Positions 31,035 to 34,431 of a DNA stretch of 34,773 nucleotides are shown in pieces. The position numbers were made by a program, and so were the translations under genes. The DNA is from a bacterium (lineage in GTDB: Bacteria; UBP14; UBA6098; B30-G16). Location: NCBI GenBank assembly GCA_021159335.1, contig JAGGRZ010000168.1:1-34773 (forward strand), in the 5' to 3' direction. The first letter of the stretch is position 1. Each line of letters begins with the position of its first letter. The notes beneath the pieces are model-generated. The model was not told the origin of the DNA, did no database searches, and saw only the letters and a program-made list of their open reading frames with translations.

Positions 31035-32606
31035 CTAACTAAAATTGCGCAATTTTTTACATATCTCACAAAAATCCATTATATTAAGTTGTTCGGCGCG
31101 TAATCCAGCGTATTCGCCCAAAAGAGACTCATAAATTTCGGGAAAGGACTCCTTAAGATTGTTAGCCAGGGTTTTTCTTCTGTGAGCAAATGCTTTGTGC
31201 ACTACTTTCGAGAAAAGCTCATCATCGACATCGGGACATAACGGTTCCTTCCGCGGAATGAGCTTTATTACCGTTGATGTCACCTCGGGCTGAGGGCTGA
31301 AATTAGCAGGTGAAACATTGAAGCAACGCTTGATGGTAAAGTGTCTGCCCAATATAACGGTGGGGATACCGTATGTTTTGCTCCCCGGGGATGCCAGAAG
31401 CCTTTCTGCGACCTCACGCTGAACCATAAGTAAAGCCTCCTTAATGGCAGTCCTGTGAGCAAGGATATGAAAGAGTATAGGCGAAGTTACCGAGTATGGT
31501 ATGTTTCCTACTACTACCGCTTTTGTGTCGTAAAATCGCGATATACGCGATATATCAGCTCTTAGGAAATCCATGTGAACCACAAATAGGTTTTCGAATT
31601 TTCCCCAGAGTAATCTCACCAAATCCTCGTCGAGCTCTAAGGCGATTACCCTGCTGAAACGATTGACCAAACGCTCAGTAAGAATGCCTTTGCCAGGTCC
31701 TATCTCAACGCAAAGCTCGCCCTCTCCCGAAAGATTAGCAATGCGGTCCGCTATTTTGGGGTTAATGAGAAAATTTTGACCAAGACTTTTTACCGATTTT
31801 GCTTTCGCGGGAGCTGGTATGCCGAAAAGCTTTTCCGCATTTTTCGCTATGGTGTTTGCCGTTTCGCTTAAAGTTTTTCCACAAACTTCCGCAATTTTTT
31901 CCACGATCAGGGGAATTCGTGCGGGTTCGTTGCGTTTGCCTCGATAAGGATGAGGCGAAAGATATGGGCAATCCGTTTCGGAGAGAATTCTTTCTAAAGG
32001 AGTCATCCTTACAAGATAGTGCTTTTTATAATTTTTAAAGGTTATTGGACCACCGAAGCCTACATAAAAACCCTTGTCCAAAGCCCACGACAGAAATTTT
32101 TCATCGCCTGAGTAAGCATGCATAACGCCCTTGAAATAGCCATGCTCCTCAAGGATTTTCTTCACATGATTGTGGGCATTTCTTATGTGCAGAATCATCG
32201 GCAGTGAAAGCCTTTTGGCAAGCTCTATTTGTGCACTAAACACTCTTTTCTGGGTATCGCGCGGGGAGAGGTCACGGTAGAAATCGAGTCCTATCTCGCC
32301 TATGGCGACCACTTTGGGATGACAGGCTAAATGCTCAAGCCTCTCGAGCCAGTCGTCGGGAAGATTCGCGGTTTCGTGAGGATGAATTCCCACGGCTGCG
32401 AAAACATGATAATAATTTTCTGAAAGCTTTATTGCCCTTTGAGACGACTCGAGGTCAACTCCGGGATTAATTATTCGGACCACGCCGAAAGACTTTGCCC
32501 TTTCTATGACCTCGTCTCTGTCGCCATCAAATTGCGGAAAGTCGAGGTGAGCATGAGTATCAATAAAGAATGATTTTTCGTCGGGATTTTGGCGTGAATA
32601 CCTCAT
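31035..32606 (-). CDS. TatD nuclease - KsgA 16S rRNA dimethyltransferase fusion
   Basis: A single 523-residue frame joins two enzymes. Residues about 14-262 are a complete TatD metal-dependent DNase: H18/H20 in DTHAHLD, E104 in GEIGLDFYRD, H140, H163 in HAYSG, and D212 in SETDCPYLSPHP. After a short Ala/Lys linker (about 263-272), residues 273-523 are a complete KsgA/RsmA, which dimethylates two adenines near the 3' end of 16S rRNA: SLGQNFLI, SAM motif EIGPGKGILT, catalytic GNIPY (N368-Y371), and VSPANFSPQPEV. tatD, rnmV and ksgA are separate neighbours in Firmicutes; here rnmV is absent and the outer two are fused. It starts six bases after deoC. Confidence 0.93.
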   Translation of the reverse strand: MRYSRQNPDEKSFFIDTHAHLDFPQFDGDRDEVIERAKSFGVVRIINPGVDLESSQRAIKLSENYYHVFAAVGIHPHETANLPDDWLERLEHLACHPKVVAIGEIGLDFYRDLSPRDTQKRVFSAQIELAKRLSLPMILHIRNAHNHVKKILEEHGYFKGVMHAYSGDEKFLSWALDKGFYVGFGGPITFKNYKKHYLVRMTPLERILSETDCPYLSPHPYRGKRNEPARIPLIVEKIAEVCGKTLSETANTIAKNAEKLFGIPAPAKAKSVKSLGQNFLINPKIADRIANLSGEGELCVEIGPGKGILTERLVNRFSRVIALELDEDLVRLLWGKFENLFVVHMDFLRADISRISRFYDTKAVVVGNIPYSVTSPILFHILAHRTAIKEALLMVQREVAERLLASPGSKTYGIPTVILGRHFTIKRCFNVSPANFSPQPEVTSTVIKLIPRKEPLCPDVDDELFSKVVHKAFAHRRKTLANNLKESFPEIYESLLGEYAGLRAEQLNIMDFCEICKKLRNFS

Positions 32607-33464: not shown

Positions 33465-34121
33465 CTACGACAGTCTTACGCCGTTTATCACGAGCTCAAA
33501 TTTTTTGCCGAGAAATTCGGCTGCGATTCTTGAGGCTTCCATTCTATCGAGAAAGATTTTAAAATACTCCATCACGGACGATATGTCGGGGTCAATAAGT
33601 ATCGAAAGCTCAATCGTATTATCATCTACGACTATTATGTTGCTTTCCCTTGCGGCATAGTTTACTCGGTCGTGAATGTCGAACGCCACGGTGTTCGGGT
33701 TTCGGACCCGGTCTCTGTGGACATCGGATTTGTCGGCAATAATGAGCGCAGAACATATCTCGGATATAGGTTCACCTTCACCCTCATGGTGGTTGCCAAT
33801 CGCTGCGGCAATCTCGAGCGCCTCGGTATAATCCATTCCCATGCGTTTCAATATATCGAGTGCGATAACAGCACCATGAAAAGCGTGGTGGCGTCTGTTC
33901 ACTATGTTTCCTATGTCGTGGAGATAGCCGGCTATTTCGGCGAGTTGAGCACGCCTTTCGTCGTAGCCGAGGTCTCTTAGCAACTTTCCGGCTCGTTCTG
34001 CAACGATGTCGCAATGCCTGAAACCATGCTCGGTATAGCCTATTATTTCGAGATTTCTGTCGGTAAGCTGGATAAGCTCGCGAACCTGCGGGTCAGCTTT
34101 AATGTCATCAACTGTAATCAT
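33465..34121 (-). CDS. HD-domain metal-dependent phosphohydrolase
   Basis: The 218-residue protein has the full HD-superfamily metal site: H36 in EHGFRHC, H68-D69 in YLHDIGN, H111-H112 in NHHEGEG, and D130 in IIADKSDVHRDR. The C-terminal 70 residues form a mixed alpha/beta extension (IIVVDDNTIELSILI). The family hydrolyses phosphate mono- or diesters of nucleotides. Its start overlaps the end of the EutN-type gene by 14 bases, and deoC follows nine bases later. This tight linkage suggests a role in supplying or removing a phosphorylated sugar or nucleotide for DeoC, which is inference. Confidence 0.85.
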   Translation of the reverse strand: MITVDDIKADPQVRELIQLTDRNLEIIGYTEHGFRHCDIVAERAGKLLRDLGYDERRAQLAEIAGYLHDIGNIVNRRHHAFHGAVIALDILKRMGMDYTEALEIAAAIGNHHEGEGEPISEICSALIIADKSDVHRDRVRNPNTVAFDIHDRVNYAARESNIIVVDDNTIELSILIDPDISSVMEYFKIFLDRMEASRIAAEFLGKKFELVINGVRLS

Positions 34122-34431
34122 CGCTTTCCTCCAGAAGGCTTTTGTCTATTTTCCAGTTTTCTATTACAGCCACTATAAACGACCTTACTGGCGCCGTGGG
34201 GTCCCCCAAAACCATCCTCGTCGCGTCGCCCTCCTGCGAAACGAGAACCACATCTCCCTCGCCGGCGTCAACAAAGTCTATCGCAATGTATGTGTCGCCG
34301 TACTCCTCTCTGGTTACAGGGTCGATAGCCCTGACGAGAAGAAGTTTTTGCCCAGTGTATGCCTTATGCTTAACAGTAGATACAACGGGTTTTTTTACCA
34401 CTCCTATGAACACAACAAAATATCGCAGCAA
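34108..34431 (-). CDS. EutN/CcmL-type microcompartment vertex (pentamer) protein
   Basis: The 107-residue protein belongs to the BMC-P family (EutN/CcmL/PduN), whose pentamers cap the vertices of microcompartment shells. Visible family features are GVVKKPVVSTVKH, GQKLLLVRAID, YIAIDFVDAGEGDVVLVSQEG, and the closing APVRSFIVAVIENWKID. The start is uncertain. The TTG at 34431 has AGGA six bases upstream, but the GTG at 34413 gives an N-terminus closer to family members. It overlaps the HD-domain gene by 14 bases and heads the operon with deoC. No BMC-H hexamer gene lies in the window. Confidence 0.88.
   Translation of the reverse strand: MLRYFVVFIGVVKKPVVSTVKHKAYTGQKLLLVRAIDPVTREEYGDTYIAIDFVDAGEGDVVLVSQEGDATRMVLGDPTAPVRSFIVAVIENWKIDKSLLEESDDYS

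Follow-up and report, generated by a model that had tools for sequence, protein, structure and literature searches.

A phylum-wide fusion of the TatD nuclease to the 16S rRNA dimethyltransferase KsgA and its possible relation to the loss of YbeY

TatD is a nearly universal nuclease, the physiological role of which is unsettled. In Firmicutes, the rnmV gene lies between tatD and ksgA (PMC1084345). A broader tatD-(rpfB/yabE)-(rnmV)-ksgA cluster is found in Actinobacteria and Firmicutes, and in Mycoplasma pulmonis tatD is located next to ksgA (PMC1084345, PMC6009663). A functional association of tatD with ksgA was predicted there from the conserved neighbourhood (PMC1084345, PMC6009663). The locus described here shares with this cluster the gene pair, its order and its orientation. 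In the cluster, however, TatD and KsgA are two independent proteins, the genes of which are mostly not contiguous, and no TatD-KsgA fusion is mentioned in the available parts of these reports (PMC1084345, PMC6009663).

The window, which is the entire stretch of 34,773 nucleotides that was analysed, belongs to a draft genome (170 contigs) of the phylum UBP14. The fused gene, its parts and its upstream neighbour are positioned as follows:

31035..32606, minus strand: fused tatD-ksgA gene, ATG at 32606, 523 aa, open frame conserved in 15 genomes
31821..32567, minus strand: TatD nuclease domain, Group II (HxH), residues 14-262, from PF01026, TIGR00010 and the ligand columns
31794..31820, minus strand: interdomain linker, residues 263-271 (PAPAKAKSV), from the alignment and pLDDT
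31053..31793, minus strand: KsgA/RsmA dimethyltransferase domain, residues 272-518, with SAM site, NIPY and FxPxPxxxS, from TIGR00755
32613..33455, minus strand: deoC aldolase (PF01791), directly upstream of the fusion gene

The original prediction of a single chain that carries both active sites is borne out by this gene. Its translation runs for 523 codons from the ATG to the stop with zero internal stops and gives a protein of ~58-kDa, in which each domain scores like an ordinary member of its family. The TatD half matches the complete Pfam profile (PF01026 TatD_DNase, profile positions 1-253, residues 15-262, 280 bits) and exceeds the cut-off of the TatD subfamily model TIGR00010 (265 bits against 206). 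TatD proteins are divided into Group I, with the motif (G/A)xN, and Group II, with HxH (PMC10085689); the window protein stays well below the cut-off of the Group I model, the E. coli TatD equivalog NF007745 (173 bits against 395). All metal ligands are in place (H18, H20, E104, H140, H163 and D212), and the nearest PDB matches are 6l25, 2gzx and 1j6o (S. aureus and T. maritima TatD). The KsgA half is matched by PF00398 RrnaAD (residues 273-491, 182 bits) and by the ksgA equivalog TIGR00755, which scores 219.3 bits against a cut-off of 171 and covers model positions 4-255 out of 256 over residues 272-518. The motifs that define KsgA are all present: the SAM-binding ExGxGxG (E301-G303-G305-G307), the acidic motif II (E324), the motif III Asp (D346), N-[IL]-P-[YF] (NIPY368-371) and FxPxP (within FxPxPxxxS436-444). 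The nearest structures of this half are 6ifs, 1qyr and 7o5h (B. subtilis and E. coli KsgA). The linker between the domains, 8-9 residues in length, was found at 31794-31820, in agreement with the earlier estimate of about 31790-31820.

Profile searches of the window genome gave one TatD match and one strong KsgA match, both of which are the fused frame, and no second TatD. Three further PF00398 matches were considered as a second KsgA and rejected; they are short and weak (24-37 bits, in frames of 227-269 aa) and were read as other methyltransferases. The fused gene thus appears to encode the sole true KsgA of this genome, which is predicted from its sequence to dimethylate A1518/A1519 in the pre-30S particle, and both domains are presumably active. 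The deoC gene upstream is probably in the same operon, as the spacing is 6 nt. DeoC is extended at its N-terminus, perhaps by an encapsulation peptide, and a EutN/CcmL microcompartment vertex gene (PF03319) is located nearby at 34108-34431. This region may be the last part of an operon for a sugar-phosphate microcompartment, which would finish 6 nt before the fusion gene.

The phylum was sampled through one class of 17 genomes, in which the locus is intact in four families (f1 to f4). All 15 genomes with a complete locus, spanning the four families, have a single TatD-KsgA frame, the product of which is 38-58% identical to the window protein. In the two remaining genomes the locus is cut by a contig end (G006) or the assembly is 74% complete and gave no match (G007). 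The draft state of the window genome is the only point that favours an assembly or sequencing artefact masking a stop codon. The identical open frame in 15 genomes excludes both a chance open frame and a missed stop at the window locus, and such an artefact has practically no chance of being the explanation.

Across the alignment of the 15 homologues, none of the six TatD metal ligands varies. In KsgA, the ExGxGxG, the acidic motif II, FxPxP and RRK are likewise invariant, together with the N and P of NIPY. The mean pairwise identity is 48% for TatD, 41% for KsgA and 27% for the linker. In family f4 (L012, L013, L015, L020, L021) the KsgA motif III Asp, in the column of window D346, is replaced (K/A/M/K/K), with the TatD site intact; judging from these substitutions, the methylase step in f4 may be altered or weakened. 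The outgroup sequence L019 seems to lack this Asp too. The phylum has no KsgA other than the fused protein and usually no other TatD either. One genome encodes a further, distant TatD (29% identity) on the contig that carries its fusion (G011:C88:28369-29106).

It is conceivable that separate TatD and KsgA polypeptides are still made, through processing of the fusion or through internal initiation. Two members, L007 (with a possible Shine-Dalgarno motif) and L009, have an in-frame ATG at the start of KsgA. Against this, no in-frame start codon was found in the linker of the window gene and just upstream of it, or near the linker in L012, L013 and L014, and no member retains a stop or a frameshift. 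Separate polypeptides are therefore very improbable.

AlphaFold predicts each domain with confidence. The arrangement of the two relative to each other is reliable in the model of the window protein (pTM 0.88) and not in that of an f3 protein (pTM 0.55), and pLDDT falls below 50 at residues 269-276 of the window model. A common domain interface was set aside, as the window model is not reproduced by the f3 model.

The original prediction had not settled how far this architecture extends. It covers the whole phylum, and no fusion outside the phylum was found among the matches listed from a survey of 369 genomes, where full-length fusions would top the ranking and a fusion too divergent for an end-to-end match could escape. 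Among the matches listed, full-length matches outside the phylum all hold a stop, a frame change or an intergenic gap. Likewise, the best 80 named loci of a GTDB genome scan contain no fusion. The fusion is genuine, ancient and, in this survey, confined to one phylum; in it, two known families are joined in a new domain architecture. The earlier question whether it had already been widely described can be answered to the extent that a search of the open literature yielded no report of a TatD-KsgA fusion protein. TatD frames of ~460 aa occur in many phyla, and their ~200 extra C-terminal residues are unlike KsgA (L023, L026, L030, L049, L112, L114, L115).

The idea that the fusion was built from genes that are neighbours elsewhere agrees with the arrangement in several phyla. 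Separate tatD and ksgA genes are often adjacent in Marinimicrobia (L043, L065, L071), Calditrichia (L080, L085), Zixibacteria (L037, L096), Lachnospiraceae (L036, L038-L042, L103, L108) and Acidimicrobia (L044, L047). In the pairs closest to the clade, which are those of Marinimicrobia, Calditrichia and Zixibacteria (genomes G024, G021 and G060), the two genes are directly adjacent or overlapping. In G024 the junction of tatD with ksgA reads TTTGGCATT-TGA-ATG-CCCAAAAAATCG, so that losing this single stop would yield the fusion. In the named loci of Bacilli, tatD and ksgA are separated by 2-3 kb, which agrees with the published tatD-rpfB/yabE-rnmV-ksgA cluster (PMC1084345). The original prediction was correct about the position of rnmV in Firmicutes, and had taken the gene to be gone from the present locus; since tatD and ksgA stand in bare pairs in the closest outgroups, the fusion most likely descends from such a pair, and rnmV was probably never involved. 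In the best tree of the joined domains the fusion requires a single change. The backbone of this tree is weakly supported (45/16); support rises to 82/91 once pgpH and CNNM are added. The placement of f2 relative to f3 has a support of 66/49, and their order is ambiguous.

Alternatively, the fusion may be structurally neutral, a stop codon having been lost between translationally linked neighbours and the product fixed by drift in the ancestor. Each domain would then serve its own task independently of the other, DNA repair or scavenging in the case of TatD and ribosome maturation in that of KsgA, with only their stoichiometry being set. One mutation is enough, as the junction in G024 illustrates, the linker is short and unconserved, both domains score as ordinary family members, and the f3 prediction resembles two independent beads. 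On the other hand, none of the 15 intact loci of the four families has been split again, while tatD and ksgA are separate everywhere else sampled. Neutral fusion would also have to coincide, unusually, with the loss of ybeY and the lack of RNase R/II and RNase PH described below. A neutral origin is a substantial possibility, with a chance somewhat below even.

By combining the literature on 16S rRNA maturation with the gene content of the phylum, it is possible to propose what the fused protein might do. KsgA binds the late pre-30S particle at h44/h45, where it has a checkpoint role, and 17S processing stalls when KsgA is lost or catalytically dead (PMC9032327). In the crystal structure 3r9x, which is among the PDB matches, Era and KsgA are combined with 16S nucleotides 1506-1542. 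PNPase, RNase R, RNase II and RNase PH have been implicated alongside YbeY as redundant actors on the 16S 3' end, and Era, when overproduced or mutant, partly bypasses the loss of YbeY (PMC9159920). YbeY, the near-universal RNase of the 16S 3' end, has been described as present in all classified bacteria (PMC7515705), and its exact role is disputed.

Profile searches detected YbeY (PF02130) in two of the 17 phylum genomes, both of family f3, leaving 15 without it; 168 of 176 control genomes outside the phylum have the protein and eight lack it. In f3 and in the outgroup genome G021, ybeY is positioned between pgpH and a CNNM/CorC gene, and in the outgroup G024 between phoH and CNNM. In 11 genomes of f1, f2 and f4, pgpH is followed directly by CNNM with a gap of 7-152 nt and ybeY is missing (junctions G000:C60 (L132), L124-L127, L129-L131 and L133-L135); the gap is 7 nt in the window genome. 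The empty junctions rule out that YbeY was overlooked by the HMM, and ybeY is cleanly excised from the pgpH-ybeY-CNNM operon in these 11 genomes. As the fusion is common to all four families and f3 keeps ybeY in its ancestral place, the fusion is older than the loss. The ambiguous order of f2 and f3 allows one or two losses of ybeY.

RNB-family enzymes (RNase R/II) were found in none of the 17 phylum genomes. They are also missing in 39% of the outside genomes, so that their absence alone is nothing special. RNase PH is likewise missing from all 17, since each genome has no RNase_PH-domain matches beyond the pair that belongs to PNPase, which in a few genomes is divided by contig ends. PNPase is present in all 17 and could trim the 16S 3' end alone. 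Shine-Dalgarno motifs precede about half of the genes in the window, and a matured anti-Shine-Dalgarno 16S 3' end is therefore presumably needed.

The loss of ybeY after the fusion suggests that the fused TatD-KsgA may have taken over the 16S-finishing job of YbeY. At the stem of the phylum, adjacent and co-oriented tatD and ksgA genes would have lost the single intervening stop codon. The KsgA domain, docking on the late pre-30S particle at helices 44/45 near the 16S 3' end, would bring the TatD 3'-exonuclease beside the single-stranded 17S 3' tail, which the tethered TatD might then trim, inspect or proofread. YbeY would thereby have become dispensable, and its gene would later have been deleted from the operon in three of the four families. 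This explanation as a whole is held tentatively, with a chance somewhat below even and barely ahead of that of a neutral fusion. The more specific reading of an alternative 16S 3'-end maturation or 30S quality-control function, in which a TatD built into the KsgA checkpoint factor would link the methylation and release steps with the trimming of the 17S tail, is rather unlikely.

The enzymology of TatD bears on this proposal in both directions. E. coli TatD degrades both ssDNA and ssRNA as an exonuclease in the 3'-5' direction, and shortens 3' overhangs on duplex DNA to about 2 nt (PMC4176340). The TatD domain of the fusion is more conserved than the KsgA domain, with its ligands invariant, which counts for an action on the 16S tail. 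Counting against it, RNase activity was shown for the Group I E. coli TatD and the fused domain is of Group II; its role as an RNA exonuclease is only predicted, and a 3'-exonuclease activity on RNA would be expected by analogy with E. coli TatD only. YcfH and YjjV were assayed on DNA only, as far as the available part of that report describes (PMC10085689).

The last point can be turned into an argument for a bifunctional oxidative DNA-repair enzyme, with KsgA as a DNA glycosylase and TatD as AP endonuclease and 3'-exonuclease, since Group II is the type of TatD assayed on DNA. TatD, YcfH and YjjV act as AP endonucleases, and mutation of tatD makes cells sensitive to H2O2 (PMC10085689, PMC4176340); E. 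coli KsgA was reported to be a DNA glycosylase with an H2TH-like C-terminus (PMC10091538). The glycosylase role is, however, the E. coli work of one group, as far as the available part of the source goes, and DNA repair leaves unexplained both the pattern of ybeY and RNase losses and the translation-related neighbourhood of tatD-ksgA elsewhere (PMC1084345). A repair enzyme is improbable.

Returning to the replacement of YbeY, the retention of both the fusion and YbeY by f3 counts against it. The losses of ybeY amount to one or two events, so that their tie to the fusion could be a coincidence, and the eight outside genomes without YbeY, in which no fusion was detected, indicate that ybeY can be lost without it. 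The joint role in rRNA quality control suggested in the original prediction is plausible and has independent circumstantial support from the loss of YbeY and the lack of RNase R/II and RNase PH, which falls short of a demonstration.

A fusion fixed throughout a phylum can be compared to a natural experiment, a Rosetta stone that links TatD to 30S maturation. The tatD gene accompanies ksgA in many unrelated phyla. The loss of ybeY raises the interest of the fusion, the functional link being circumstantial: a clade in which a nuclease was first tethered to KsgA and YbeY was then deleted allows an account of the role of YbeY, and of what can replace it, to be tested. The question reduces to biochemistry on one protein.

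Three known systems can be compared with the fusion. With the KsgA/RsmA 16S m6,2A1518/A1519 dimethyltransferases (TIGR00755; 1qyr, 7o5h) it has in common a full-length domain and the SAM, NIPY and FxPxPxxxS motifs; it differs from them in the added N-terminal nuclease and, in f4, in the lost motif III Asp. With the Group II TatD 3'-exonucleases/AP endonucleases (YcfH, YjjV, TATDN3; 6l25, 1j6o) it shares the complete TIM-barrel, the six ligands and HxH, whereas here the TatD is fused to KsgA and is usually the only one of the genome. With YbeY and RNase R (PMC5101352, PMC9159920) it would share the RNA end and the late stage of 30S assembly on which it is proposed to act. The fusion is, however, unrelated to YbeY and RNase R in sequence. 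Most of the phylum is devoid of YbeY through deletion, RNB-family enzymes are missing throughout, and the window genome, which lacks both, does not have a system of the YbeY/RNase R type. The fusion is proposed to work like the YbeY/RNase R system rather than to belong to it.
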